Shown here: positions 43,001-64,000 of the stretch, in pieces
Layout of the letters: every line of letters begins with the position of its first letter
Numbering within the stretch: the first letter of the stretch is position 1
Position numbers and translations under genes: made by a program
Notes under the pieces: generated by a model
Seen by the model: only the letters and a program-made list of their open reading frames with translations
Databases searched by the model: none
What the model was told of the DNA's origin: nothing
From: Crossaster papposus
Lineage: Eukaryota; Echinodermata; Asteroidea; Velatida; Solasteridae
DNA: 64,000 nt
Direction of reading: 5' to 3'
NCBI GenBank assembly: GCA_037893245.1
Contig: JBAIAA010000600.1
Coordinates: forward strand, 124,001-188,000

Positions 43001-46000
43001 TTTCAAAAGAAAATTTGAAATTCGTATCAATTTCTAACGATTGCCAGTGAGCACCATTGCTGTGCAACAGACAAGCCTTTGAAATACACACCCAAAATCA
43101 CAAAGTCATGTATTGACCGGCAATCGTGGACGGGACATTGTCCGACCGTCTTACCTCTTTTGTTTGTACTTCGGATGATCGCCGTAGGATTTGTACACGA
43201 GTTGAGATTGTGGACGTTGTGTCAATCGTGGACCCATTGTTTGCCTCCCAATTCTTTTGTCCGACGACCACGATTGCCGGTCAATACAAACGCACTTAAT
43301 TGGCTAGTGAGGCAAAGCATCTTTCAATCGCTCCTACTGAAGCCGATCACTGACATATCAAAATGATAATCCACAACAACACCAAAGTGCAAAGGTAAAA
43401 AGACGACACCATGAGTAAGTAACTGTTCCTTTAACTGGGAGAAGGATACACGTTGCTTTGCTGGTTTCTATGTAGTAGTATATACTATTACAGTTTAGTT
43501 AAAGGAACCGCGTCTACCATTGTTGACTCGTGTTTAGTCAACCTATTTTCTTTCTTTTTGTTCGTAATTCTGCCGCTTTTCCAGGATTTGCGGGTTCTTC
43601 AGATTGTGTACAGCATTGGGTACTCGCTGTCGTTGGTCGCACTTGCCATCGCTATGGGAATATTCCTTTATTTCAAGTAAGTAGGCCTCACCCATTATCG
43701 GAAAAAGTTCATTACGCTCTGTATCGCGAATTGTTTGCATCAAATAATTATCTTTTTAAAAAACTTCTCTCTTTGACAGAAAACTAAGGTGTCCTCGAAA
43801 CACCATCCACATGCACCTGTTCATGTCCTTCATCTTGAGGGCGGTATTTGTCTTCGTGCGCGACATCATTCAGACGGTCAGCCTAAACATGGACGGGGAG
43901 AGCTTTGCGCATCTCAGTGATGGCTCAGTCAATAGCAACACCACACTAAATGTAGGTAGGCCAACAAGAGAGGGCGCTTCTACTTACGAGAGCCCCTGAA
44001 TTGCTAGCTATACAATCGACACCATAGTCAACTCGGCACACTGTACTGTTCAATAAACCCGATTAACATCAAAGGGAATTCCGTTCAGTAGGGATAACAA
44101 ACGATGTGTACACAACAGTTTTGCAGTGTAGGGACCGATAACGCCGCTAATTATCCTTAAATGGATCATATACGTTTGGTAATTGGAACCCACTGTTTGT
44201 TTCAATCCTATATAGTTATAGATATATATTTCATAAAACTAACCTGTACAAATTTCATTTTAAAAGGTGGTAGCGATTTTGAGATATTGCCAAAAATCGG
44301 GAGCGGTTATGTCCACGCAGGAAGAATAATCTGCATTGGAATACACAATCTGGGGAACGTCACTGCAGTAACGCTTCTCAGATTCAAATTTTGGGGATAA
44401 AAAGTGATATCTTTTTCCATAACCGCAGTACTTCGAAGTGAAAAGTTTCTAAAAATGCATTATACTATCCAAAGCTGCTGTACTTTTTACCAAGTGAGTT
44501 TTTATTACCATTAATTTTTGGAGTAATTACCAAACGTAAACGATCCCTTTAAAACCTAGATAAAATTTACTGTCGAGTACCGAGTACCTTGTCAGTACGG
44601 CTTCGTTTCTGTTACAGGACATATCCTGCCATCAGGCCTTGACGATAGTCGTCAGCATCTGTCAGTACGCCCTGGTGTCCAACTATTACTGGCTGCTCGT
44701 TGAGGGCGTGTATCTCCACGCCCTGATCACACTGGCCGTATTCTCGGAATCGTCGTCACTCAAGCTGTACATTGCGCTGGGATGGGGTAGGTCAAAGGTC
44801 ACACAGAGTGCCCATTTATCTGGGCTCCATGTTTTATTCTGCGTATACCGCTACCTGATTGGTCGAGGTTTTGTAATACGCGCGGTGCGCAGGAACTGTT
44901 TAAAAATGTATACATGAATATTCAAGTAAAGTTGACCCCGCGTCGAGGTCATAGTACGATGCTTTGGCAGTTTACTCTTTGAAAATATAATTCATATTTT
45001 ATTTTGTTCAGGTGTACCCATTTTATTCGTTCTTCCGTGGGTGATAGTACAAGAATATACCACTCCTGACGGGTAAGTTGCAATTCATTGTTTTCCCTCG
45101 GTGCAAAAAAAAATAAAAAATAAATAAATAACAAAATCATCGAACAAAAAACTACCGTAAAACGTCATTTGACGTAATTTGTTACGTATAAATTCCGTGC
45201 TTCGTTCGCAGGTGTTGGCTGGCGTCCATGACTCAGAGGAACATCTACTGGATCATCAAAGCTCCCGTGATGTGCTCCGTGGTGGTAAGTTTGGAATACG
45301 CCGTCAGTAGATCTATGGACTCCCGTGCACACGTACTCCCTCAACGGCAAGAAAGGGCGAGAGGGTTGGGAGCACTGACCTCTATACATGGACAGATCAT
45401 CCATTGTTTCATTTTGAAGTCGGCATGCAGAGAAGTGCAACATGGCGTCACTGCTGTGAGCCAATGAAATGTCCAGGTGTAGAGTTCAATTGGTTGGTAA
45501 ATCCACTGACCTCTACAACTGGACATTTCATTGGCTCACAGCAGTGACGCCATGTTGCACTTCCAGTTCGCGCCGACTTCAAGTGTTAGCACAGCAGAAT
45601 ATGGACAATGATCTGTCCAGGTGTTGAGGTCAGTGGTTGGGAGTAATGGTTGGGAGTCACTATCGACGCCATCTTGCCTGACTGCGATTGATTTGGGTGA
45701 AGTGACTGATTCCTGCCTCTATCATTCAGAAGCAAAACGTTTTTTTATTATGGAGTCCGCGACCAGACTCTCCAATCCCCTGGTATCCGTGTATCACACG
45801 AACGAGGAACGGCGTGTGTGAAACCAGCGACATCAGTGTATGTGACTCTCCCACAGGACGTCGTTGCTATAATGTGAATAATAAGCGCCCTTTTTGATTG
45901 GCACATAGAGCTAAAACACTGCGGAATGAAACTCAGGAAATGATTGAATATACCAAGACAGTACTTCGTAAATTCTTCGTTAGCTTCTGTTATGGTGGTG

Positions 46001-49000: not shown

Positions 49001-50481
49001 GACATAATGCCTAGCTCAAGAACACGCGCATTAGCTATAACCCCATGCTGGATTCGAACTCACAACCTGCAGAATTCAGAGTTGTATTAAAGTCCTTTCA
49101 CAAGTCCAGTCACTAGTCCAGTCAAAATTCGTTTCACAAGTACGTCCAGTCGCAAGTAAACTGGTTGAACAATGACAAAGAAATGCACACGTTATATAGC
49201 TAGTTTGAATAGCTAGTGTCTTGACTTGATTTGAGACTGAAGGACTTGTGATGGTTTTACAGGGACTCGAACACAGCCCTGGAAGAATTAAGACGTGCTG
49301 ACCACGAATTCAAGGCTCCAGACCACGATTCCAAGGCACTCTGCAGTTTAACATATTAACATGTTTAAAGGGATCGTATACGTTTGGTAGTTACTCCAAA
49401 AATTAATGGCAATAAAAACTTACTTGGTAAGAAGTACAGCAGCTTTGGATAGTATAATGCATTTTTAAAAACTTTTCACTTCCAAGTACTGCGGTTATGG
49501 AAGAAGATATTACTTGTTATCCCCCAAAATTTGAATCTGAGAAGCGTTACTGCAGTGACGTTTCTCAGATTGTGTATTCCAATGCAGATAATTCTTCCTG
49601 CGTGGACATAACCGCTCCTGATTTTTGGCAATATCTCAAAATCGCTACCACCTTTTGAAATGAAATTTTTACAGGTTAGTTTGATGGTATATATCTATAA
49701 CTATATAGGATTAAAACAAACAATGGGTTACAATTACCAAACGTATACGATCCCTTTAACAATCATTATCGGTTTGAACTTTGACACAATAATTGGCGTC
49801 TTTTAGGGCTTCCTGGTGGCCGTGCTGTACTGCTTCATGAACGGTGAGGTGAGATCGGAGATCCGACGGAAGTGGCGAGTCCGTCAGCTCAACCGGACAC
49901 TCAGCACGCACCGGTCGTTGCGCAACGGACACTCCAGGTCGTCCTTTTCCACCCCGTCTCGCCAGGACTCGCTCAAGGAGCCCCTGAAGGACGCCACCGC
50001 GGCCGACAAGAACTCCATCAAGGCCAAGCTGAGGGCGCTCAAGCGCCACGCCTTCGGGCCCTACCGCAACTTGAACGGCCACCTGGGCAACGGCAACATG
50101 GCCCAGCCCAGCCAGACCGCGGTGAGCGAGATCGACAACGACAGTGACTCGGCGGAGCAAGCCGGGACGTCGTCGGACGTCCGCCCGGTGCGACACACCG
50201 ACATCGACCACCACACCGGCGCCGAGCCCAGCGAGAAGTCTTCGGCGGGCGCCAAACCTTACTACAACCTCTCTAAGAGCACGCCCACGGTCATCATAGA
50301 CGAGGCCAGGGACGACTCCTCCTTCGACGGCGACGACGGGTACGATGGAGACGTGTACGACCCGCACGATGTCGACAGTCACGAGGTAGAATTTGCGGTC
50401 GATCAGAAGGCCACCGAGAGCTCATCTACAGGAGCCTGCGAACGAGGTCGCGCGTATCCAAACATTGAAACAGAAGTGTGA
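27752..50481 (+). CDS. PTH-receptor-like class B1 (secretin family) GPCR, 11 coding exons; signal-peptide exon not found
   Basis: A plasma-membrane peptide-hormone receptor expected to couple to G proteins. Exons: 27752-27848, 41580-41699, 42450-42544, 43585-43676, 43780-43951, 44618-44786, 45012-45072, 45212-45284, 46185-46270, 48102-48237, 49807-50481. Every junction has AG/GT borders and phases agree throughout (1776 nt, 591 residues plus stop). The ectodomain has six cysteines (20, 37, 46, 60, 79, 94, counted from the first exon found) and sites NLT, NTT, NWT, NYS. Class B landmarks are IHMH in TM2, C196 paired with the ECL2 CW (C270), YYWLLVEG in TM3, PLFG in TM6 and QG in TM7. TM5 to TM6 (LRVLATKL, KSTLVLIPLFG) resembles vertebrate PTH receptors more than other class B receptors I recall; the hormone-domain stretch NFDKILCW looks glucagon-receptor-like. 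Human PTH1R is 593 residues. The ligand is unknown, and subfamily assignment is by eye. Confidence 0.93.
28001..28200 (+). repeat. Tandem duplication carrying a poly-G expansion
   Basis: Two copies of a unit of about 90 bp share TAATTATTTTCCCTTGGGG, then TACCGGGCAATTA and CTAGAGTTCTAGAC. The first copy has about 50 G (one A) after CCCTT; the second has only six. The length change is in the G run. Confidence 0.8.
28013..28063 (+). repeat. Poly-G run (about 50 G)
   Basis: The longest G run in the window, with one A, 165 bp downstream of the receptor exon E1 donor. Confidence 0.9.
28210..28622. repeat. MITE with GTGTTCGCACTGGA ends, in receptor intron 1
   Basis: AGCCGTGTTCGCACTGGA at left and TCCAGTGCGAACAGGGCT at right. 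The interior is full of short inverted words (GGGTAACTT / AAGTTACCC, GGCTCGGTTAAACT). Confidence 0.87.
29935..30187. repeat. Foldback MITE family A, copy 5, in receptor intron 1
   Basis: It has complete ends GGGGCCAATTTCATAAAAC and GTTTTATGAAATTGGCCCC within the E1-E3 intron. It is closest to copy 1. Confidence 0.88.
31453..31672 (+). mobile_element. SINE family 2, copy in receptor intron 1
   Basis: A B-box-like CCGGGTTTGAATCCCG is followed by ATGTGGATTGGGTTTTCAGT, CCGTGGGTTTCTCCCC, and an end TAATTGGCGCTAC with an AAATAAA tail. The same body is at 34.3 kb inverted and at 22.1 kb truncated. Confidence 0.78.
31793..32170. repeat. MITE family B, copy 2, inverted, in receptor intron 1
   Basis: It reads in the opposite orientation to copy 1, with end CGTATACGATCCCTTT complete at the right and the left terminus clipped at about GGTAATTGGAACC. 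Confidence 0.88.
33083..33727. repeat. Long inverted-repeat element E2 with TA target duplication
   Basis: It begins CAGGGTGTCCAC and ends GTGGACACCCTG, with TA on both sides (33081-33082, 33728-33729) as expected for Tc1/mariner-type insertion. Arms of about 175 bp (TCTGTCCAATGGTATAAGG and inverse) flank a centre of about 290 bp. It is in receptor intron 1. Unequal arm mutations show it is not brand new. Confidence 0.87.
34312..34560 (-). mobile_element. SINE family 2, inverted copy in receptor intron 1
   Basis: The inverse of the 31.4-kb copy: GGTGGGAGGAAAACCCC, GGAAACCCACGGAGT, ACCCCAATCCACATATTGG and AATTTGAACCCGGGTCA are all present in reverse order. Confidence 0.8.
36654..36862. repeat. 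Foldback MITE family A, degenerate copy 6
   Basis: The interior (CAAGGTTACAAACACAATTT, then GTGCTAAGCACA and CTTAGCAGCT) is recognisable, but both termini are mutated. It looks like the oldest copy in the window. Confidence 0.65.
37059..37086 (+). repeat. Poly-G run (about 28 G)
   Basis: Uninterrupted run in receptor intron 1. Confidence 0.9.
38510..39190. repeat. Large foldback element, host of a nested palindrome
   Basis: Arms at about 38515-38690 and 39045-39185 are inverted: TTTTTGGAAACGTTAGGATA against its inverse, and AACCAATGTTTACA against TGTAAACATTGGTT. It lies in receptor intron 1; the ORFs at 38289-38692 are its by-products. Confidence 0.83.
38831..38946. repeat. Near-perfect 115-bp palindrome nested in the foldback element
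   Basis: TACACTGCAAAAACGG at left and TTTTTGCAGTGTA at right, with GTGTTAAATTTAACACTTTT and its inverse inside, and a loop of about 9 bases (GCGAATGGT). TA flanks both sides, fitting insertion of a TA-targeting MITE. Confidence 0.88.
41231..41365 (+). repeat. Dispersed repeat R, copy 2, before receptor exon E3
   Basis: It carries the same words in the same order as the 24.7-kb copy. It lies about 215 bp upstream of exon E3. Confidence 0.7.
41580..41699 (+). CDS. Receptor exon E3: hormone-binding domain core
   Basis: The exon lies between a T-rich acceptor ending TTATTCAG and the donor GTATTT, with 2 nt completing the codon begun in E1. It encodes SPRC, then NFDKILCW, then NTT and QPCP, giving cysteines 2, 3 and 4 of the hormone-receptor domain. 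FD-x3-CW is the form seen in glucagon-type receptors; PTH receptors have WD. After PCP the usual Tyr-rich stretch is replaced by a Pro-rich one (APPPEP), which is odd but ends in the same phase-1 split codon as I recall at the vertebrate E3/G border. No ATG lies in this frame, which is why it is invisible as a simple ORF. Confidence 0.88.
41989..42214. repeat. Foldback MITE in receptor intron E3-G
   Basis: ACGGAGCCCCTAAAGGGACA at left and inverse at right, next AATCACCGTGACGAAAT and inverse. The loop has three tandem TCGAAATCATTTCGTGC units. Confidence 0.87.
42450..42544 (+). CDS. Receptor exon G: end of hormone-binding domain
   Basis: The acceptor is the tract TTTCTTTCTTCCTGTGTCCAAG; the donor is GTCAGT. 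Two bases complete the split codon, then come 31 codons with FAYKFCHANG and ENWTNYSMC. These supply cysteines 5 and 6 and two N-glycosylation sites (NWT, NYS). The pattern matches the AYRRC, NG and W-x-NYS-x-C elements of PTH receptors. The exon ends in phase 0, matching the TM1 exon. The same stretch is open in another frame, which hides it in a naive translation. Confidence 0.9.
42606..42860. repeat. Foldback element after receptor exon G
   Basis: ATGCGCCGTATT and GAGGGCGCTGT at the left return as ACAGCGCCCTCA and AATACGGCGCAT at the right. The middle is AT-rich. It starts about 60 bp past the exon G donor. Confidence 0.75.
43111..43287. repeat. Foldback repeat with CAATCGTGGACG ends, copy 2, in receptor intron G-M1
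   Basis: TATTGACCGGCAATCGTGGA at left and its inverse at right. It matches the 0.6-kb copy through the interior (CATTGTCCGACCGTCTT). Confidence 0.83.
43585..43676 (+). CDS. Receptor exon M1: transmembrane helix 1
   Basis: The acceptor CTTTTCCAG precedes GATTTGCGG and the donor is GTAAGT. Thirty codons plus two bases encode IVYSIGYSLSLVALAIAMG, a classic class B TM1 (Y-x-x-GYS-x-S). The reading frame stays open upstream to 43453, but that part is intron with a polypyrimidine tract. Confidence 0.95.
43780..43951 (+). CDS. Receptor exon M2: intracellular loop 1, TM2 and extracellular loop 1
   Basis: The acceptor TTTGACAG and the donor GTAGGT border 172 nt. The exon completes the Lys codon from M1 and encodes KLRCPRNTIHMHLFMSF, with the conserved TM2 histidine, then an ECL1 stretch with DGSVNSNTT. 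A second GT four bases downstream would break the frame, so the donor at 43952 is chosen. RNTIHMHLF is shared by PTH, VIP and related receptors. Confidence 0.95.
44158..44552. repeat. MITE family B, copy 3, inverted, in receptor intron M2-M3
   Basis: It has the full interior, and the left end is slightly mutated (GGATCATATACGTTTGG). It stops about 65 bp before the M3 exon. Confidence 0.9.
44618..44786 (+). CDS. Receptor exon M3: TM3 and start of TM4
   Basis: The acceptor CTGTTACAG and the donor GTAGGT border 169 nt starting in phase 0. The first residues DISCHQ carry the TM3 cysteine that pairs with ECL2. NYYWLLVEGVYLHAL is the class B TM3 signature with the key glutamate. The exon ends inside the GWG codons of TM4. 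A 395-bp foldback element ends only about 65 bp upstream of the acceptor. Confidence 0.96.
45012..45072 (+). CDS. Receptor exon M4: TM4
   Basis: This is a 61-nt exon between TTGTTCAG and GTAAGT. It encodes GVPILFVLPWVIVQEY and TTPDG, completing TM4 and entering ECL2. Phase 1 in and phase 2 out match both neighbours. Confidence 0.93.
45212..45284 (+). CDS. Receptor exon M5: ECL2 and start of TM5
   Basis: This is a 73-nt exon between TTCGCAG and GTAAGT. It opens with the CW pair of ECL2, the most conserved ECL2 feature in class B, and continues to YWIIKAPVMCSVV, the TM5 start. Vertebrate PTH receptors have the similar W-II-x-P arrangement here. Confidence 0.94.
45365..45645. repeat. Foldback element in receptor intron M5-M6
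   Basis: AAGTGCAACATGGCGTCACT and its inverse, AATGAAATGTCCAG and its inverse, with outer arms GACAGATCAT / ATGATCTGTC. The arms close on a 30-bp loop near 45485. Confidence 0.85.
46185..46270 (+). CDS. Receptor exon M6: TM5 and intracellular loop 3
   Basis: This is an 86-nt exon between ATCCACAG and GTAAGG. It encodes LNFILFLNILRVLATKL followed by a short loop ATNAAEARRY. The LNFILF-N-x-RVLATKL string is the strongest pointer to the PTH-receptor branch. A minisatellite begins about 30-40 bp downstream of the donor. Confidence 0.95.
46306..46665 (+). repeat. Intronic minisatellite, unit about 59 bp, with two-unit higher order
   Basis: Units share CCCAGTCCCCTAGCTGCACC. They alternate between forms followed by CGTAGGAC and by CTACAGGGCGACACC. 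It starts about 36 bp downstream of the M6 exon donor. The minus-strand ORF here (QLGDWEKT repeats) is a by-product. Confidence 0.9.
46682..46905 (+). repeat. Dispersed repeat Q, copy 2
   Basis: It matches the 6.5-kb copy across about 200 bp; an insertion of about 25 bp follows the CTATTCGGCAT word. It is in receptor intron M6-M7. Confidence 0.75.
47740..48020. repeat. Foldback element in receptor intron M6-M7
   Basis: TTTTCCCATGGGA/TCCCATGGGAAAA, GTTTACA/TGTAAAC and TGACGTAAT/TGACGTCATT are inverted, and an outer TATGACGA-CAGTA pair (about 47748 and 48000) extends it. Confidence 0.75.
48102..48237 (+). CDS. Receptor exon M7: TM6, ECL3 and start of TM7
   Basis: This is a 136-nt exon between CACTTTCAG and GTGAGT. 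It encodes KLAKSTLVLIPLFGVYY (TM6 with the conserved P-x-x-G kink), an ECL3 with TDDP, and ELGMSCQ. The last glutamine is the TM7 Q of the class B QG pair, completed by the next exon. Confidence 0.96.
48517..48790. repeat. Dispersed MITE, copy 2, inverted, in receptor intron M7-T
   Basis: GACAATCCCATAGAGATGTA at left and GTCTCCCCAAGTGCC at right are the inverse of the 9.2-kb copy; the middle also matches. Confidence 0.82.
49078..49284. repeat. Foldback repeat family C, degenerate copy 3
   Basis: CAAGTCCAGTCACTAGTCC units on the left and GGACTTGTGATGG on the right are inverted. It sits in receptor intron M7-T next to a family B element. Confidence 0.75.
49365..49759. repeat. MITE family B, copy 4, in receptor intron M7-T
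   Basis: It has complete ends TAAAGGGATCGTATACG and CGTATACGATCCCTTTA. It stops about 47 bp before the last coding exon, so it probably overlaps or abuts the branch-point region. Confidence 0.9.
49807..50481 (+). CDS. Receptor exon T: TM7 end and cytoplasmic tail with PDZ ligand
   Basis: The acceptor GTCTTTTAG precedes GGCTTCCTG. The exon encodes GFLVAVLYCFMNGEVRSEI (TM7 and helix 8) and then a long polar tail with Ser and basic clusters, a KHAFGPYRN segment and a run of Asp (DDSSFDGDDGYDGD). The protein ends ETEV, a class I PDZ ligand, analogous to ETVM of PTH1R that binds NHERF proteins. The tail is clearly more GC-rich than its surroundings, so large false frames are open on the other strand. 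At about 210 residues beyond TM7 its length is close to that of PTH1R. Confidence 0.96.
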   Translation, partial: GFLVAVLYCFMNGEVRSEIRRKWRVRQLNRTLSTHRSLRNGHSRSSFSTPSRQDSLKEPLKDATAADKNSIKAKLRALKRHAFGPYRNLNGHLGNGNMAQPSQTAVSEIDNDSDSAEQAGTSSDVRPVRHTDIDHHTGAEPSEKSSAGAKPYYNLSKSTPTVIIDEARDDSSFDGDDGYDGDVYDPHDVDSHEVEFAVDQKATESSSTGACERGRAYPNIETEV

Positions 50482-52894: not shown

Positions 52895-55800
52895 AAGCAA
52901 GGTTAACCCCTTACAATATTTTTCGACTTTGGCCGAAAAATGAAATTTCTTCAAAGTTTTGGGAAACGTGCCTATATTACCCACTAAACATTAAATTGCC
53001 GTTCAGATGTGATTTTGAAGAAAAAAAACATATCAAATCTGCTGTAAAATTTGCTCAAAAAGTGGTGGTTTTTTTAGGCCCTAATTAAAACAAATCCACA
53101 ATGTTCGCTCAAATATTAACACAATTGTGTTTGAATATCGATTGATGCTTCTCTAGCCTCGGAGGGTATTTCTGCGTTGTTTAGAATTAATGTCAATTTT
53201 TATCAAAAATTTCAAACTTTGGTCAATTGTATTTAAAATGCAAGGTTATCTTCGACAATTTTATTAATAGGCAAGGTTAATCCCTTACATCCTGCATCAG
53301 AGATGATATTAAAGACGTTTTGAGAAAAATCAAAATTTTGATAAAAAAGTGGGTTAACCCCTTTTTTTTTTTTTTAATTTTGGCCAAAAATGATATTCTT
53401 TTCAACTCTTTTAGAAGATGCCCACAGGACAGGAGAAGCCATACCAACTTGAATTTGAACGAAATTCACGTTAAATAAATAAATAGGTCAAACATTTGAG
53501 GGAAAAAACATCAAAAATATGAGTTGTTTTTGTCAAAAAAATGTAATATTTTACCAAATCTCTGCAATTTTAGCTTCGTTTTTATTGATTGATGTTCCCC
53601 TTACATCAGAGATGATATTTAAGACGTTTCGAGAGAAATCTATTTTTGGCCAAATTTTGATAAAAAAGTAGGTTAATTAACCCCTTGTTTTTTTCGAAAT
53701 TTTGGTCCAAAATTATATTCTTTTAAACTCTTTTAGAAGATGCCCACAGGACAAGAGAAGCCATAACAACTTGAATTTGAACGAAATTCACGTTAAATAA
53801 ATAAATAGGCCAAATATTTGAGGAAAAAAACATCAAAAATATGAGTTGTTTTTGTCAAAAAAATGTAATATTTTACCAAATCTCTGCAATTTTAGCTTCG
53901 TTTTTATTGATTGATGTTCCCCTTACATCAGAGATGATTTTTAAGACGTTTCGAGAGAAATCAATTTTTGGCAAAATTTTGATAAAAAAGGTGGGTCAAC
54001 CCCTTGTTTTTTTGGGTTTTTTTGTCAAAAATGATATTCTTTTAAACTCTGTTAGAATATGCCCACAGGACAGGAGAAGCCATACCAACTTGAATTTGAA
54101 CGAAATTCACGTTAAATAAATAAATAGTTCGAAAATTTGAGGAAAAAACATCAGAAATATGAGTTGCTTTTGTCCTAAAAATTTAATATTTTACAAAATC
54201 TCTGCAATTTTAGCTGTTTTTATTGATTTATGTTCCCCTTGCATAAGAGATGATATTTAAGACGTTTCGAGAAAAATCAATTTTTGTGCAAAATTTTGAT
54301 AAAAAAGTGGGTTAACCCCTTTTTTTTTTTTTTAATTTTGGCCAAAAATGATATTCTTTTCAACTCTTTCAGAAGATGCCCACAGGACAGGAGAAGCCAT
54401 ACCAACTTGAATTTGAACGAAATTCACGTTAAATAAATAAATAGGTCAAACATTTGAGGGAAAAACCATCAAAAATATGAGTTGTTTTTGTCAAAAAAAT
54501 GTAATATTTTACCAAATCTCTGCAATTTTAGCTTTGTTTTTATTGATTGGTGTTCCTCCTGCATCAGAGATGATATTTAAGACGTTTTGAGGAAAATATA
54601 TTTTTGGCCAAATTTTGATAAAAAAGGGGGTTAACCCCTTGTTTTTTTCGAAATTTTGGTCCAAAATTATATTCTTTTAAACTCTTTTAGAAGATGCCCA
54701 CAGGACAGGAGAAGCCATACCAACTTGAATTTGAACGAAATTCACGTTAAATAAATAAATAGGTCGAACATTTGAGGAAAAAAACATCAAAAATATGAGT
54801 TGCTTTTGTCCAAAAAATGTAATATTTTACCAAATCTCTGCAATTTTAGCTTCGTTTTTATTGATTGGTGTTCCTCCTGCATCAGAGATGATATTTGAGA
54901 CTTTTTGAGAGAAATCTATTTTTGGCCAAATTTTGATAAAAAAGGTGGGTTAACCCCTTTTTTCTTTCTTTTTTTTTGGTCAAAAATGATATTCTTTTCA
55001 ACTCTTTTAGAATATGCCCACAGGACAGGAGAAGCCATACAAACTTGAATTTGAACGAAATTCACGTTAAATAAATAAATAGGTCGAACATTGAGGGGAA
55101 AAAACATCAAAAATATGAGTTTTTTTTGTCCAAAAAATGTAATATTTTACCAAATCTCTGCAATTTTTGCTTTGTTTTTATTGATTGGTGTTCCCCTTGC
55201 ATCAGAGATGATATTTGAGACGTTTTGAGATAAATGTATTTTTGGCCAAATTTTGATAAAGGTGGGTTAACCCCTTGGATTTTTTTTAATTTTGGTCGAA
55301 AATGATATTCTTTTAAACTCTTTTAGAAGATGCCCACAGGACAGGAGAAGCCATTCCAACTTGAATTTGAACGAAATTCACGTTAAATAAATAAATAGGT
55401 CGAACATTTGAGGAAAAAAACATCAAAAATATGAGTTGTTTTTGTCCAAAAAATGTATTTTTTTACCAAATCTCTGCAATTTTAGCTTTGTTTTTATTGA
55501 TTGGTGTTCCTCCTGCATCAGAGATGATATTTGAGACGTTTTGAGAAAAATGTATTTTTGGCCAAATTTTGATAAAAAAGTGGTTAACCCCTTGTTGTTT
55601 TTTTATTTTGGTCAAAAATGATATTCTTTTAAACTCTTTTAGAATATGCCCACAGGACAGGAGAAGCCATACAAACTTGAATTTGAACGAAATTCACGTT
55701 AAATAAATAAATAGGTCGAACATTGAGGGAAAAAAACATCAAAAATATGAGTTGTTTTTGTCCAAAAAATGTAATATTTTACCAAATCTCTACAATTTTT

Positions 55801-56140
55801 GCTTTGTTTTTTATTGATTGGTGTTCCCCTTGCATCAGAGATGATATTTGAGACGTTTTGAGAGAAATGTATTTTTGGCCAAATTTTGATAAAGGTGGGT
55901 TAACCCCTTGGATTTTTTTTAATTTTGGTCGAAAATGATATTCTTTTAAACTCTTTGAGAAGATGTCCACAGGACAGGAGAAGCCATTCCAACTTGAATT
56001 TGAACGAAATTCAAGTTAAATTAAAATCATTGGTCAAAAATTTAAGGAAAAAATCCATCAAAAATATGGTTTTCAAAAATTCAAATTGTGGCACATTTAA
56101 CCAAAAATACAAGGTTAATCTAATCTTTTAATTAAATATT
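52895..56140. repeat. Satellite array, monomer about 318 bp, about 9 copies
   Basis: The anchor word CCCACAGGACAGGAGAAGCC recurs at about 53421, 53743, 54062, 54379, 54697, 55018, 55333, 55649 and 55966, spacing 315-322 bp. Other shared words are GAACGAAATTCACG, TTACCAAATCTCTGCAA, GCATCAGAGATGATATTT and GGTTAACCCCTT. Ends (before 53270 and after 56045) are diverged, as expected for array edges. ORFs within it are by-products. Confidence 0.95.
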
Positions 56141-56795: not shown

Positions 56796-57018
56796 TCAGG
56801 GAACCAGACTAATGGCACCGTACGTCTTGACTGAAATACCAACGGTGCTGGACGTTCGATTGCCAGTATTCGAATAGGTATTCGGATCGATACTCTGGTC
56901 GGTATTGTGTGCGTCCTCGGGATTAATGTACACGTAACAGGTGGAGATTTCATTCTTTCGAATCGGATGTTCCGTGTCATCGCTATCTCTTGGTGAAGTT
57001 TCGTTCCTTGCAGAAATG
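56796..57018 (-). CDS. Exon 3 of small membrane protein: cytoplasmic tail
   Basis: The acceptor is TTCTTGTTCTTTAACAG. One base completes a Cys codon and 73 residues follow to a TGA. The tail is acidic, Ser/Thr/Asn-rich and carries the four tyrosine motifs. Its last codons lie only about 7 bp from the edge of a foldback repeat (56514-56789), so the 3' UTR must run through that repeat. Confidence 0.75.
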
Positions 57019-57909
57019 CTGTTAAAGAACAAGAAGAATCGATTATTCGAAATTAAATGACATCGACAACATTGTCGAAAGATCACTCTCGAACAAAACA
57101 AAGTATGGTGAGCCTTGTAAGCCATTAGTTAATCTTAGAAGATTGAAAATGCCAGCCTTTAGTCTGTGGTCTCGACACAGTTACCCGCTACCTACCAGTA
57201 TCGTATGAGGGCATAGAGTAGCACTGAGACCACGGCAAGTATGACCAGACTCCACAGGGACACGACAACTATGGTGAGAATTCCCTCCAAATCCAGAGGG
57301 TGGAATTTCAGCGTCAACGAAGATGAAGAGGCGGCAGATTCTTGTAATCAAACATTCAGAGAGAAAAATAACAACATAACATCGATTTAATCTTACCGTG
57401 CTGAATCGTTCTAATTCCAATATGAATCGACACTCTAGGGGTTATGATTTAGTGAAGCCACCCAAGGTGAAGTCAGTCTGCGAATTAGGTGAATGGTAGT
57501 CGATGATTGGGATTCGGGGGTCGAACCCGAAACACTAACCCTAAACCTATAACCCACATTCTAACCCTAGTTTTTGAGTAATTTAAGTACAATCTAAAAA
57601 TCGAATTCGTGAAATTCCTAATGGAGACCTATTCATCTATAGAAATAACCCTTCGGAGACCTTTTCACTCCCATTGTCCCCATTGTGTTCAAGTCACCAG
57701 AGGGTACCGTATTTCGCACCCTATTAATACACACATGAACACCCATTTTCATACTGAAGTGTGTTCTGAATACACCGATATAATAATAATAATAATGTCC
57801 CGACATGTTTACCTGCTGATACTGTTGTCCATGGTCCTGTAAGATTCACGACTCCGACAAGTAAAAAGCCAAGGACTTGAAGTAATTTACCGGAACAAAG
57901 TCCCTCCAT
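56796..57909 (-). CDS. Small single-pass membrane protein with tyrosine-motif tail (3 exons, 154 aa), family unknown
   Basis: Exons on the minus strand: 57909-57813, 57340-57196, 57018-56796. Splice sites are consensus and phases match (1, then 2). Residues 1-25 or so form a signal peptide (LLQVLGFLLVGVV). A short ectodomain of about 27 residues follows, Ser-rich with an NLT site near the cleavage region. One strongly hydrophobic helix spans about 53-77 (ILTIVVVSLWSLVILAVV). The 75-residue tail has T107-C-Y109-V-Y111-I112, which fits the TxYxxI (ITSM-type) pattern, YIN and YSN (YxN, Grb2-SH2-type) and YGAI. This layout recalls transmembrane adaptors or signalling stubs of receptors. I recognise no homologue; ectodomain exons could be skipped alternatively, but I saw none in the 470-bp first intron. 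Confidence 0.72.
57196..57340 (-). CDS. Exon 2 of small membrane protein: juxtamembrane segment and TM helix
   Basis: The acceptor is TTGATTACAAG after a TTTTTCTCTCT tract; the donor is GTAGGT. Two bases complete the split Glu codon, then 47 codons run from SAASSSSLTL to YALIRY and end with two bases. There is no ATG in this frame, so it is not visible as a simple ORF; a different frame of the same stretch gives a meaningless ORF. Confidence 0.75.
57813..57909 (-). CDS. Exon 1 of small membrane protein: start codon and signal peptide
   Basis: The ATG is at 57909-57907. It encodes MEGLCSGKLLQVLGFLLVG and on to TTVSA, ending with one base of a split codon before the donor GTAAAC. The hydrophobic core of about 13 residues after a lysine is a good secretion signal. 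The frame runs on into the intron (to 57724) but then loses any protein character. Confidence 0.7.
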
Positions 57910-58650
57910 CTCTGAGTCGGTAGTACTAGGTTTAATAATGTCAATTTATTCACGGCCTGCGTGTATTACTGGAGCTTTTTGTCAGTGTTATAACGGCACG
58001 CACACAACACTATACCGCAGACTATTGCACATACGACCATAGAAACACACAGAATGGCGTTAGATAAAATATCGCGCGCCGTAATAGCCCAACCGCGTTA
58101 CATTCGCGCTTCCAGTTCACTCTGAAAACACTAGACACTCTCTAGACTATTGTTAACTAATCCACCCCCCTAAAAAGAGATCACTGAAGCGTGGTTTTCG
58201 TACTGTATGTCAGTACGCCTGGAGCGAGTAACGAGTCCCTTGTACTATAGGCTCTATGCATGCGCACTTAATTGATTGTGTTTACGCATTACAGTGAAGC
58301 AGATTGTGCGCAATTATGATAGAATTGTTCCCTTGATAACAGCATGAAATTTGGCAGACAGTCAAAAATCATGAGATCCAATATTTGGCTATAGTGCTAA
58401 GCACGGTATGATCGAGAGACTCCCCCCTTAGTCCCCCATACCTATACACTCTCTAGACTATTGTTACCTAACGCACCCCCACTAAAAATGATTCCTGAGA
58501 AACCACAACATTCCAGGGTCCCCTCCGTCTCATCTTGTATGCTTCATATATGCACTAAGTTATAAGGTAGACAAATATAGATAGAATAACACGCAATGGC
58601 AGCCATTTTGAAAATTTTAAAAATTGGTTGTTATTATTCTACCTCATAAT

Positions 58651-58889
58651 ATGTGACACGATCAAGCGGAATGAGTCAGATGTCGACCCCGGTCAAAAAA
58701 ATGAGTTTTCATGTAGTTTTAAAGAGGGCATCTGTATACGTTTTAAAAACTGAAAACCCCATGTTGATACGATGTTTTGTTGTCGAGTTATGTAAATTTG
58801 TTTAAATACCAACGAAGAACACAGTTCTGATTAAAAAATAATTGGAATTCCCCGACATCCGACTCATTCCGCTTGGTCGGTGTCACATA
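58651..58889. repeat. MITE with ATGTGAC ends, related copy 2
   Basis: ATGTGACACGATCAAGCGGA and ATGAGTCAGATGTCG at left, inverse at right (CGACATCCGACTCAT is close, with TCCGCTTGGTCGGTGTCACAT). The same end theme as the 18 kb element, but the interior is different. Confidence 0.78.
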
Positions 58890-59349
58890 ATTTGTTTCCA
58901 TAGCCAAATATCTGTCACATGACTTATTCTGATTGTGTGCCAAATTCTATGCTTTTATCATTTTGATTGAAAATGTTCACCAATCTGTCTCACTAATATA
59001 AAACAAAATATATAAAAAACGGACAACATACTTCCAAGTTCCACTACTCTGGGGGCAAACACAACTCAGTGAGGGGCACATGATGCTCCTCAGAGATCCC
59101 AAAAAACTAGAAGTATGTTTCCACGTTCTTGCTGACGAACGCAGAAAAAGTCATTGACAAAGGACAGCCAGCACAAACAATAACAGTCTAACATTTTCTT
59201 TTATTTCCGTTAAAACGTACAGTTCAGAAATTAGGATATACCAGTTTCAAAAGTATATAGATATATAATTTATACATATAGGTAAAATCTTTGTAAAAAA
59301 GTTAATATTGTGGATTACTCCCTGAAATTGTGCGAGTCTAATTGGCGAT

Positions 59350-59523
59350 TTAGAACTTATGCACAAATTTGCTTAGCACAAACAATATCTAGCCAGGTTA
59401 CCAGCCAAACAAGTCACAGGCAATATACATCACATGCAAATTAGTTTTTTAACCCTGATTTTTGCCAAGAAAGATTTTCATGCTAAGCAATTTGTTTGTG
59501 CTGCGCAGCTCCATGAAATTGGC
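59350..59523. repeat. Foldback MITE family A, shortened copy 7
   Basis: GCTTAGCACAAAC at the left and CATGCTAAGCAATTTG with CATGAAATTGGC at the right. A further solo end (GAAATTGGCCCC) is at 59700-59711. Confidence 0.7.
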
Positions 59524-59773
59524 GATACCCAGCAAGATATGGGACCGAGCGACTCCCCCCTTAGTCCCCCATACCTATACACTCCCTACACTATTGTTAC
59601 CTAACGCAACCTAACCTCAAAAGAAACCACAACATTCCGCAAGCACTATGAACACCACAAAGGAGAGGGGTTCTCTCCGTCCCATATTTTGCTTCATATG
59701 AAATTGGCCCCTGGCGGCGCGCCCAAAACCAGCCCCAGAGGAAAGCGCCCTCCACTGACAGCCAAACCGATTT

Positions 59774-59779
59774 TTTATT
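59774..59779 (-). terminator. Polyadenylation signal of HNMT-like gene
   Basis: AATAAA on the minus strand begins 8 nt past the TAA stop. If used, the 3' UTR would be only about 30 nt long, which is unusually short. Confidence 0.45.
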
Positions 59780-59786
59780 ATTTGTA

Positions 59787-60148
59787 TTAGTTGGGCTTCC
59801 ACGCGATGATGTGCTCCGAGTCGTAGTACAGGAAGACCCTGCCGTCGTCCCGCACGGTGGCCAGGCCCCGCAGGTAGTCTCGAAACTCCTCGAAGACGGG
59901 GCGAGACACGCTCTCCCGGAAGTGCAAGACGTTCGAGAGGAAGTCTACCAGCAGGGCGCCCTCTGGCGACGCGTCTTCGAAGACGGCCGTAATGTCGTAG
60001 TCTTGTTGGTCGTTCGGCTGGCCGCACACGACGTGCGGGATGCCGCGCCCGCCAAAGTAGCTACGGAGGTCGCGGCTGCTAAACAACGGGTTCAGGTCGT
60101 CCTGGGCAAACTGAAATCGCTCCTCGATCTTAATGACGTCAGAATTTT
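59787..60148 (-). CDS. HNMT-like exon 3, C-terminal part
   Basis: The acceptor is TTGTCTTTTCCAG. The exon completes the split Glu codon and runs from NSDVIKIEERF to the stop TAA after AWKPN. FAQDDLNPLFSSRDLRSYF lines up with the FPQDDL-x-TSDDL region of HNMT. A frame open on the opposite strand (59811-60296) is only its shadow. Confidence 0.9.
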
Positions 60149-62273
60149 CTGGAAAAGACAAAAAAGCGTAAACTTGAAATATGCTTGGGAGGCCTGCGCC
60201 TATTTTTCTTCCTCCGTTTTAGGCCTGGTCGGTATGATACATCACCAAACGGGTAAAAGCCAGCAAGTCTGGTGCCCTGACCTGGCAATTCTCTAGCGTT
60301 TATAATTGCCCTGTTTTCTCAAATTGTATTTATTTGTTTATATTGCTTTAAAAAAAGCAATTTAGAAACGGTATCTAGTTTTAGTATGAAAGTCAAAAAT
60401 GGCGCAGGGAACGCAGCTTTTAAAAAGCGCCCTCTCCAGTCCCTGTAAATCATCACCTGACTCCAGCGCCACGAGTAGGACGCCCCCTGGCGCCAACCGG
60501 CTATACAGATACTCCAGCATGGAATTCATGTCCGGCTCGTAGTACAAACAGAAGAGGGCGCTGATGAGGTGGAACTTTGTCTGGTCCCCGGACTGCTCGC
60601 CGACATGCCGGTACTGGCTCAGCGTCTGGGTGTGCCAGTCGAACTCCACGCCCTGGAGCGCCCCCGACTGCTGCTCCCTGACGCGAGTCCTGTAGAGGTC
60701 AAGCTGTGTCATGCTGGGGTCAACCGAGGTGTTGTGGATCGACGGATATTTGGTCAGTAGGCGCGAGATCAATTTACACTCCACTTCGCCTGTTCGATAC
60801 AGCAAGGCCACAACACAGAATATTAGAAATTAGGGTTGCGCATTGTAGGTAGTACGTGACGTAATTATAATGAAAGTTCATAAACCCTGATAACTAATAA
60901 GCCACTTCAAAAAAATTAGAAAAAAACTCAAGGCGTTTTGGACACCCATCTTATGCTTATACACATGTATTATCTTTTTAGTTTCTGTTTCATTTGGGCT
61001 TATAACTATAGATCGATTACAGGGCCTACTCACAACTCTGCAGGGCCCACTCACAACTCTCGACTTTATTTAACCTATGACATAGAATGGAGCGGCCTTG
61101 TAATCTATGGGTATCAGTGAGGTATATACATGGTTAGGGTCAGTCCATTCTATGTCCTAGGGTATATAGTCGGGAGTTGTGAGTGGGCCCTGCATTCTAT
61201 ATTGAGTTTGTTGCTGCATTCAAATAGAGGACGTAGAACAATAGCGGACAATAGAGTCCCCTATTGCCACGTCCCCAATTGACATTCGTGTACAAAACAT
61301 ATGGAAGGTCTTCCGAAAAAATGTAGGCTTAGTACAAACAAAAAGAGAACAAAGTAAGAGGTTTTGGGTTAGGGTCTCCGACTGGGGAGAACAGTGGGGT
61401 GTATCGTGTGGGTTGCATCTGCATTCAAATAATGGACGTGGAAAAATAGACAATAGGGTCCACGATGGACAGTTCACGATTGAAATTCGTGTACGAAAAC
61501 ACAAAGTGGGAGGCCATAAGTTTAAGTACAAACAAAAGAGGGGCAATAGGGTGTCCACGATAAAGGGTGTTTACACACACATATTCTGTGTTAAAGTTTG
61601 TTTTTGATCGAAGTATAGGGGACGTTGCCAAACAACGGCCAAAATCGATCGCAACAACTTGAAGCAATATCGGATCAGGCCATGCAACTATAAATTGGAA
61701 TTAACAGACTTATTGTACACTTTGTTTTTCAATTTTCAATAATGTTCAATGGCAGAAATGTGAAAAAAAAAGATAACTTAAAACCAGCCGATCCGAGGAA
61801 AGGTTGTAAGCTTGTATGAAAAGAACAAAAATAATAAAATTTGAAGATTTGTAGAAGATAATGGAAATTACATGTGTACTTTTAAAAATACACAATTGCG
61901 CTGCACTATTCAGCTCTGAAAAGGGGCTGCAAACAATTATTATAATAGCATTACTGCCTTTCGTCTTTGTGAACTTTTTACACCGTCTTGCTGAGTGTAG
62001 TCAGTTCTGTTTCCACAGTGTAAACATTTTTTTACCTTCGCCACTTCCTACGCCCAGGGTGCGCAGTGTTCCTCCCTCTGGTACGGCAACGTCCATCTTT
62101 TCCAGAACCCTCGTTCCCAGCTGGTCCTCCACCCATTTCTTGTAGTCTGCCAACCAGCTGGACACGCTATGCTCGAACTGCGCCATGCAGCACAGGTAAT
62201 GCTCGTCGTCGTTGCACAAGCTCACAAGCGGCTTGGATTGCGCCTTGTCTCTAGGCGCAGTATCCGCCATCAT
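59787..62273 (-). CDS. Histamine N-methyltransferase-like SAM-dependent methyltransferase (3 exons, 310 aa)
   Basis: Exons on the minus strand: 62273-62036, 60789-60457, 60148-59787, with phases 1 and 1 matching. It is a cytosolic class I methyltransferase resembling human HNMT (292 residues). The N-terminal DDEHY corresponds to the TEH around Glu28 of HNMT. Motif I is TLGVGSGEGEVECKLISRL, spanning the exon 1/2 joint. The acidic motif is VDPS (VEPS in HNMT). FDWHTQTLSQY, YYEPDM and LAPGGVLLVALES match the later strand and helix pattern, and FQFAQDDLNPLFSSRDL plus YDITAVFED and LLVDFLSNV match the HNMT C-terminal half. By my alignment, positions equal to Gln143 and Asn283 of HNMT are not kept, so the substrate may not be histamine. 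Confidence 0.9.
60457..60789 (-). CDS. HNMT-like exon 2
   Basis: The acceptor is GTATCGAACAG; the donor is GTGATG after ...VALES. The exon encodes the central Rossmann part, from EVECKLISRLLTKYPSIHN to APGGVLLVALES. The frame stays open through the donor to about 60362, but that extension (GDDLQGLERAL...) does not fit HNMT, while splicing to exon 3 does. Confidence 0.9.
61030..61660. repeat. Cluster of inverted repeats in HNMT-like intron 1
   Basis: CAGGGCCCACTCACAACTC near 61040 is inverted at about 61175-61195, with CATAGAATGGA inside as an inverted pair. From 61225 onward, GGACGTAGAACAATAG and GGACGTGGAAAAATAGAC are two diverged copies of a unit related to the CAATCGTGGACG family. Confidence 0.65.
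62036..62273 (-). CDS. HNMT-like exon 1
   Basis: It starts MMADTAP; either of the first two Met codons could start translation. The exon encodes the N-terminal substrate-side helices (DDEHYLCC, WLADYKKWVEDQLG) and ends inside the SAM loop GVGSGEG at donor GTAAAA. Confidence 0.88.
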
Positions 62274-63234
62274 TATTCAAGTCACAGGCACCGTACGATT
62301 GGTTGTGTTTACTTAAAGACCGCGAACTAAAAAGCAACAAAAATGTAGTCTAAATAGTCTAAAGATACAGTGTTTTACACACATACAACGTCATAACTCG
62401 AAAAACTTCTCAAAATATTCGTTAGGTTCCTTCGGGATATGTAACTTCAGTGTATAGCTCAATAAACGTACAATTTGTTGCTTGTCTGGCCTCCAAATAA
62501 ACCTGTCAAAATCCCATTGAATTTTTTGTTTGTAAACATTTGTTGGGTGTACTAGCGGCAACTTTTATACCCATTTCGAGGGTGGTCGCTTTGTGTTTGC
62601 TGCTGTCACTCACGAACTACACGTTCTGCTAAAAAGGTTCTTGCACGGCGCCTGGCAGACTGATAACATATTGCTCTTGTCATGATAGTACAATAATTTC
62701 AATTGGACACTATATTGACCTATAGGCCTATTGTCAAACGAAAGATCCAATCATAGACGCTAGAGTACACTCTAGCAAGGTCACGTAAAGTCAACCTTCA
62801 TGCATGAATGGTCAAAATGATTGGTCAACCAACCAGGTCGTTTGGGGATTTGACCAATGGGGACAGTGCAATCATGGCTTTTACGCGCTTTGATCTGAGC
62901 GGCAAGAAAACACTTTTGCGTGGGCTGTGATCTGACTAGACCGTGTGGCGCCACCCTTGACCGAAAAGCAATCAACCTCTGCTGTGACAATGATGGAAAG
63001 ATGTTTACGCTTTCCAGAACTCGTGGGGCGAAACTTGTTATTCAATTTTTTTCAAAAAGGGCAATTGTTTGCATCTTTCGACGGAAGTTGGTTGTATTGC
63101 ATTGTAAAGCTGCATTGACGTAAAGTCCTTTGTTATCCCGAGCATCACTGGATATGGGACCGGCTTTCGTGTAAACTCGGCTTTCGTGTTCGAGGTCACT
63201 GCATGAAGCTTTTGTACAAAAACAGATCGACTCG
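62274..63234. other. Region upstream of the HNMT-like gene
   Basis: This presumably holds the HNMT-like promoter just above 62273. I see no clear TATA box or other motif that I would call. No coding frame is convincing. Confidence 0.4.
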
Positions 63235-63609
63235 ATGGCAGTGGGAAAAGCAACAGGCCTTGATGACGTAAGTGTAAAGATCCTAAAGGTTGCTTGTCCA
63301 TATGTAGTTAACTCGTTAACGTATATATTAAATTTCTCAATAAGAAGTGGTCAATGCCCTAATGCTTGGAAACATGCTTCTGTAATTCCAATACATAAAG
63401 GTGGAGACAAAGGTTGTGTTAATAACTATCGGCCAATTTCCATTCTTCCGATTGTCTCAAAAATTATGGAGAGGGCCGTGCACAACGATCTGTATTCCTA
63501 CCTTGATGAAAACCGTTTGATCTCCCCTTGCCAATCAGGTTTCAGACCCCTGCATTCAACAGAAACCATTCTGCATGGATTAATTGATAATTGTCTCCGT
63601 GCAGTATAG
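63235..63609 (+). mobile_element. Truncated non-LTR retrotransposon reverse transcriptase (CR1/L2/jockey-like)
   Basis: The frame encodes the N-terminal fingers part of a LINE reverse transcriptase: GKATGLDDVSVKIL, WKHASVIPIHKGGDK, NNYRPISILPIVSKIMER and LISPCQSGFRPLHSTETIL. The catalytic FADD region is absent because the frame stops after NCLRAV, and nothing recognisable precedes the start. It is a dead fragment of about 125 residues. Confidence 0.92.
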
Positions 63610-64000
63610 TCTAGCCCTAGACCCTTGTGTTATTTCGGCGCCCACCACGCGCGCAGATTCGTTAACGCTGACTCTTTTTCAAATCCCGGCTTCGTGTGCG
63701 TTCTGGTCTCACGCATGCGTAGTTTACAAAATGCGGCTGGATCCATGTTCGCACTGGAGCCGACGTTTGACAAACGTACATGATTTTGGATTCCCAGAAG
63801 GGTCTAGCACTAGTTGGCTAGCAATTGTTAACTTTAACCTTAGTTTTCGACGATTCTCCCTCGCTTTTCCGAGGGATCCAATCAGCGACCGAGTTTGAGC
63901 CTCATCATGAATTATTCATTATACACAAATACAGGATATGACTGGGTGTGTGTACACAGTGTACATCAGGGGGGGGGCGGAGGGGGGGCCCAACAAAGTG
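63610..64000. other. Right edge, no gene seen
   Basis: Downstream of the RT fragment the sequence is unique-looking, with a moderately open but unrecognisable frame. It ends in a G-rich run at about 63969-63987. Confidence 0.4.

Follow-up and report, generated by a model that had tools for sequence, protein, structure and literature searches.

Inspection of the window (the whole 64-kb stretch of DNA analysed, which belongs to a 1.02-Gb assembly) revealed a minus-strand gene (57909-56796), which begins with an ATG, is built of three GT-AG exons and encodes a product of 154 aa. We propose, with slightly less than even confidence, that this is a single-copy echinoderm gene without known relatives, whose product would be a type I membrane stub acting as a phosphotyrosine scaffold. 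Judged from the sequence, a small phosphotyrosine scaffold is the most likely mechanism, and YxxΦ sorting is its chief functional rival. The features of the locus are presented in Table 1.

Table 1. Exons and introns of the minus-strand gene and repeats found within and upstream of it.
Feature	Position	Strand	Characteristics
Exon 1	57813..57909	-	97 nt; contains the start codon and codes for the predicted signal peptide (residues 1-32); phase 1 at its 3' end
Intron 1	57341..57812	-	472 nt, GT-AG; without visible coding ectodomain exon
Exon 2	57196..57340	-	145 nt; codes for the short outside stretch and the TM helix; entered in phase 1 and left in phase 2
Intron 2	57019..57195	-	177 nt, GT-AG; donor CTG/GTAGGT, acceptor TTCTTTAACAG, both high-ranking
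Exon 3	56796..57018	-	223 nt including the stop TGA; cytoplasmic tail with Y109, Y111, Y129 and Y147
Dispersed high-copy repeat (~197 bp) in intron 1	57524..57720		39 other places 89-95% identical (best 40 of 2145 candidates)
Upstream high-copy repeat (~240 bp) bounded by terminal inverted repeats of ~37 bp	58649..58889		best 40 of 9714 candidates: 82-95% identical, most 92-95%

The first-pass annotation had described three exons with consistent splice sites and phases. This structure was confirmed: the GT-AG introns lie in phases 1 (intron 1) and 2 (intron 2), and the coding sequence (CDS) of 154 codons contains no frame break. Positions -3 and +4 of the start codon are both G, and a TAA in the same frame lies upstream, at 57948. 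The splice sites were ranked with a generic matrix against all GT (7517) and AG (6440) dinucleotides of the window. The two donors (that of exon 1 is CAG/GTAAAC) occupy ranks 114 and 48 and the acceptor of exon 3 rank 62, whereas the acceptor of exon 2 (ATTACAAG/A) is weak and reaches only rank 3473. An in-frame TGA begins 10 nt upstream of the latter and the next AGs are placed at 57284 and 57268; therefore, if exon 2 is coding, this acceptor is the sole usable AG.

According to simple rules, residues 1-32 constitute a signal peptide, as had been claimed for the encoded protein, with predicted cleavage after VSA-32. The outside part would then comprise 20 residues (33-52) instead of the ~27 originally given. 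It is followed by a TM helix (residues 53-78; best 19-mer hydropathy 2.94) and by a cytoplasmic tail, which begins at R79 and consists of 76 residues, not 75. The single TM helix of the first-pass annotation is supported by hydropathy as well as by structure prediction for exon 2 alone, which, with high local confidence (mean pLDDT 78.4), predicted a helix spanning residues 17-50 within the frame of 51 residues; the count of one helix assumes that the hydrophobic N-terminus is a signal peptide and is cleaved off. The TM contains no charged residue, and the net charge of its 15-residue flanks is +1 on the inner and -1 on the outer side. The tail alone, folded as a single sequence, gave a mean pLDDT of 52, which is compatible with disorder, but also with the missing alignment. 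The only cysteines of the protein are at positions 5, 81 and 108, with Cys81 standing single at the membrane boundary.

The tyrosine motifs reported earlier were all found at their assigned places: (i) TxYxxI at Y109 (T-C-Y-V-Y-I, the one match to this ITSM pattern in the tail), (ii) YxN at Y111 (YIN) and Y129 (YSN), and (iii) YGAI at Y147. The tail contains no ITIM ([IVLS]xYxx[ILV], 0 matches), no ITAM and no YxxM. In 50,000 shuffles of the tail, all four tyrosines fitted YxN or Yxx[ILVM] in just 0.24% of cases and the full motif set was matched in 0.11%, for a list of short motifs drawn up after the tail had been seen. Taken singly, the motifs are more common in the shuffled tails (TxYxx[VI] 6.9%, two YxN 4.1%, two or more YxxΦ 11%). 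The motif set is thus enriched beyond what composition predicts.

Two of the four tyrosines, Y109 (YVYI) and Y147 (YGAI), also fit YxxΦ sorting signals, which are read by the medium chains of the clathrin adaptors. It is possible, although unlikely, that the gene encodes a real small single-pass protein whose tail tyrosines serve trafficking, with SH2 docking being incidental. A tail without ITIM or ITAM would suit such a function; however, Y129-S-N and the TxYxxI context are left unexplained by it, and the frequency of two or more YxxΦ in the shuffled tails makes their presence weak evidence.

According to the scaffold mechanism, which we prefer, the signal peptide would be removed, ~20 residues would stay outside, and the single uncharged helix would cross the membrane, with a flexible tail directed toward the cytosol. 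A Src-family kinase may phosphorylate the tail tyrosines, of which (i) pY111-I-N and pY129-S-N could hold Grb2-type SH2 domains, and (ii) pY109 (T-x-Y-x-x-I) one of the SHP2 type or a similar one. Y109 and Y111, being two residues apart, could hardly be docked at the same time. The stub would serve as a scaffold in the membrane rather than as a receptor for ligands. Such a signalling role is plausible, and we infer for it the expression, orientation, phosphorylation and partners of the stub. An exon-by-exon count gives 54 SH2 matches in the genome, and for one SH2 locus the closest solved structure is SHP2 (8.5e-34, versus 1.3e-20 for SHP1). A sea-star egg transcriptome is described, in an excerpt of PMC11593052, as holding Grb2, PLCγ and Cbl transcripts. 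One fragment (L027) is an ambiguous Grb2 candidate, for which SHP2 scores higher than Grb2. Two other loci (L006 on contig C121 and L007 on C704) have identical SH2 exon translations; they are perhaps uncollapsed haplotypes or the result of a recent duplication.

We also performed a search with a finder for three-exon structures of the signal-peptide/TM/tail type, whose thresholds were chosen after the gene had been seen. The sole locus that it recovered in the window was the gene at 57909-56796. Of 600 Markov-shuffled windows, 2 contained any structure of this type and 0 contained one at the gene's score; the reversed window and 46 other loci (147 kb), read forward or reversed, yielded nothing. 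The chance expectation of phase-1 signal-peptide exons is 0.015-0.026 per kb (a count that includes exon 1 itself), and it is unlikely that exon 1 stands in the right phase and place by chance. That the whole three-exon structure is non-random is supported statistically.

Comparison of the synonymous codons with non-coding codon choice gave a P value of 0.0002 for the whole CDS. Usage is coding-like in exon 2 (P 0.0002) and exon 3 (P 0.0054), and not coding-like in exon 1 (P 0.83). The codon score of the CDS is below that expected of training-type genes (P 0.0002 on that side), and 8 of the 49 training genes score lower. This model was trained on 20 of 30 SH2 loci and 29 of 30 GPCR loci, leaving out four SH2 loci open on both strands as well as six SH2 loci and one GPCR locus that were not open. 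A smaller codon model, trained on 1148 codons (12 SH2 loci plus the frame of L034, the minus-strand loci being left unturned), yielded no clear signal: 32%, 6.5% and 25% of the background scored at or above exons 1, 2 and 3, respectively. The coding nature of exons 2 and 3 is well supported; the recognition of exon 1 as a true exon rests on its position, phase and signal-peptide form.

The three-exon structure is probably a real orphan gene. We consider it improbable that the locus is not a functional gene, but consists of open frames arranged by chance or is the relic of a decayed gene, as might be suggested by the lack of a homologue in anything searched, the codon usage of exon 1, the weak acceptor of exon 2, and the satellite and repeats around the locus. 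This explanation is opposed by the shuffled windows, none of which attained the gene's score, by the codon bias of exons 2 and 3, and by the unbroken reading frame of the CDS.

A search of the genome with the whole protein produced 3 matches, all of them the protein itself (4/4 candidates scored), and a search with the tail alone 1 match, again itself (2/2 candidates scored), although distant paralogues may escape the first look of such searches. The protein had 0 matches among solved structures, and in the Pfam scan no family scored over its cut-off. The SIT family (PF15330) reached 14.3 bits (E 0.058), which is below the Pfam cut-off of 27.6 bits. Membership of this family was rejected, because the match is non-specific: two Ig receptors encoded in this genome, L034 (E 9.8e-5) and L035 (E 0.012), score higher with the SIT model in their TM-tail parts. 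Direct comparison of the protein with L034 gave one pair (E 0.058), which covers the TM and the beginning of the tail. The faint SIT match is a generic TM-tail resemblance. At the DNA level, each of the best 40 of 2145 candidate copies of the locus corresponds to the intron-1 repeat or to the locus itself, which, with only these 40 scored, weighs little on rarer copies of the exons.

Of the two Ig receptors, L034 (610-1869; contig C551 of G000, near 782908) is one open frame, with a signal peptide and a TM predicted for the Ig-domain receptor that it encodes. Its tail fits the ITAM consensus (DSDYQGL-x8-YTSL) and contains in addition YVNY; this locus is possibly of more interest than the stub gene. 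L035 (313-2589; contig C460 of G000, near 699251) contains an open frame of 758 aa, which is Ig-like (Ig_2, 25.1 bits, below the cut-off of 27) and has a long tail with a very high content of Tyr, Asp and Arg.

The first-pass annotation had assigned almost no ectodomain to the protein. This description held when intron 1 and the upstream DNA were searched, as no ectodomain exon is visible within the window. Intron 1 contains only two phase-compatible open segments of at least 60 nt (81 and 60 nt), and these are negative at both splice sites. An 81-nt segment of the same intron (57477-57397) has good splice scores, but was rejected as an exon, since it contains a stop in every frame. On the gene's strand, region 57910-59786 lacks any segment of 150-400 nt with an acceptor >0 and a donor >1, an acceptor cut that exon 2's own acceptor would fail. 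A three-frame Pfam search of 57815-64000 detected methyltransferase families only, and no ectodomain. The methyltransferase-like gene (match at 60362-60829, 30.6 bits, cut-off 30) lies upstream, on the same strand as the stub gene, and it may be histamine-N-methyltransferase-like. An open frame ending at 59787, which is followed by AATAAA, may be its last exon.

A larger receptor could have exons 2 and 3 as its TM and tail, with ectodomain exons that lie outside the window, beyond the methyltransferase-like gene, or are used alternatively, and with exon 1 as a chance signal-peptide-like frame or a minor isoform. This seems distinctly improbable: exon 1 fails the codon test when taken alone, the acceptor of exon 2 is weak, the phase 1-phase 1 junction is the usual seat of Ig-type modules, and the genome has Ig receptors (L034 and L035) whose TM-tail is half-recognised by the SIT model, but the flanking DNA within the window offers neither a spliceable segment of suitable size (by a cut that exon 2 also would not pass) nor a Pfam ectodomain, and the methyltransferase-like gene stands in between.

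Other features were observed in the window. A tandem satellite (53333-56068; 8.6 copies of a 316-bp unit) is located just downstream of the stub gene. A secretin-family GPCR exon (Pfam 7tm_2) is present at 44564-44917 (+), and a long frame without a Pfam match at 49807-50481 may be the C-terminal part of the same GPCR. A reverse transcriptase fragment (RVT_1) at 63175-63609 (+) is probably a retrotransposon relic.

The arrangement of the predicted protein was compared with that of known adaptors. In the excerpts of two reviews, transmembrane adaptors (TRAPs) are defined as proteins with few extracellular residues, one TM and a long tyrosine-containing tail (PMC4861716, PMC2803307). The stub has (i) a short extracellular part (20 residues, with no ectodomain exon visible in the window), (ii) a single TM helix, by hydropathy and helix prediction, and (iii) a long tail with several tyrosine motifs (76 residues, four tyrosines in SH2-type contexts). 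The likeness to vertebrate transmembrane adaptors noted in the first-pass annotation therefore agrees with the published definition, and the interpretation given there is, as a whole, partly supported.

The same excerpts assign a CxxC motif to LAT, LIME, NTAL and PAG, and describe LAX, SIT and TRIM as lacking palmitoylation sites (PMC4861716, PMC2803307). On paper, the stub could work like a TRAP of the SIT/LAX/TRIM kind, with which it shares a short outside part, one TM, several tyrosine motifs and the lack of CxxC (as far as described in the excerpt of PMC2803307). It differs from these proteins in its echinoderm origin and in having no detectable sequence homology to them, and from SIT also in having no outside Cys for a disulfide dimer, SIT1 being named a disulfide-linked homodimer in an abstract. 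With LAT, NTAL, PAG and LIME the stub has in common the layout of a membrane scaffold, but their juxtamembrane CxxC is absent from it, as is evident from the positions of its three cysteines. The YxN-type sites of the stub also occur in LAT.

DAP10, DAP12, FcRγ and CD3ζ are composed of a signal peptide, a tiny ectodomain, a single TM and a tyrosine tail, and the stub has the same composition. However, its TM contains no acidic residue and its tail no ITAM, which separates it from the DAP12/FcRγ/CD3ζ class, and it differs from this set also in the absence of YxxM. Receptor pairing of the DAP12 type is not favoured, since the TM is uncharged. Shisa-like proteins, reportedly called transmembrane adaptors by Pei and Grishin in 2012, are likewise single-pass proteins and proposed adaptors. 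They possess a Cys-rich ectodomain, which is absent from the stub, the Pfam scan being the only alignment test in this comparison.

In the amphioxus ITIM receptor BbLcLRR, the tail tyrosines are described, in an excerpt, as phosphorylated by Lck and as recruiting SH2 phosphatases (PMC8211107). This is, like the stub, a membrane protein of an invertebrate deuterostome with tail tyrosines; the likeness is by description only, and BbLcLRR differs in that it belongs to the LRR receptors and carries ITIM or ITIM-like sites (PMC8211107). Keyword searches of the open-access literature revealed no recognisable invertebrate TRAP among the matches listed. The one paper among them that joins the terms "transmembrane adaptor" and "sea urchin" (PMC5549309) does so, in the excerpt given, only by citing work on Shisa-like proteins. 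LAT-type transmembrane adaptors have been described from vertebrate lymphocytes and related cells. If the stub docks SH2 proteins, vertebrates would not be alone in scaffolding tyrosine signals at the membrane, and this could be examined in eggs or immune cells of echinoderms.

The host assembly was inspected through its COX1 genes. Comparison of the COX1 gene on contig C1841 with a solved COX1 chain placed AAA at Asn in 6/7 positions, ATA at Ile in 13/21, AGA at Ser in 4/7 and TGA at Trp in 13/13. By this alignment, the mitochondrial code is table 9, that of echinoderms and flatworms. The genes of C1841, identified by eye, follow the order COX1, ND4L, COX2, with ND1 and several tRNAs upstream of COX1 on the other strand. 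Such an order occurs in echinoderms, and the inverted ND1 in sea stars and brittle stars. Two further COX1-type genes, which use the standard code, are located on contig C8 (5208663-5210009 and 2872001-2873343), which is at least 5.2 Mb long. Given their standard code and the location of the mitochondrial COX1 on C1841, C8 resembles a bacterial chromosome, which may come from a symbiont or a contaminant.
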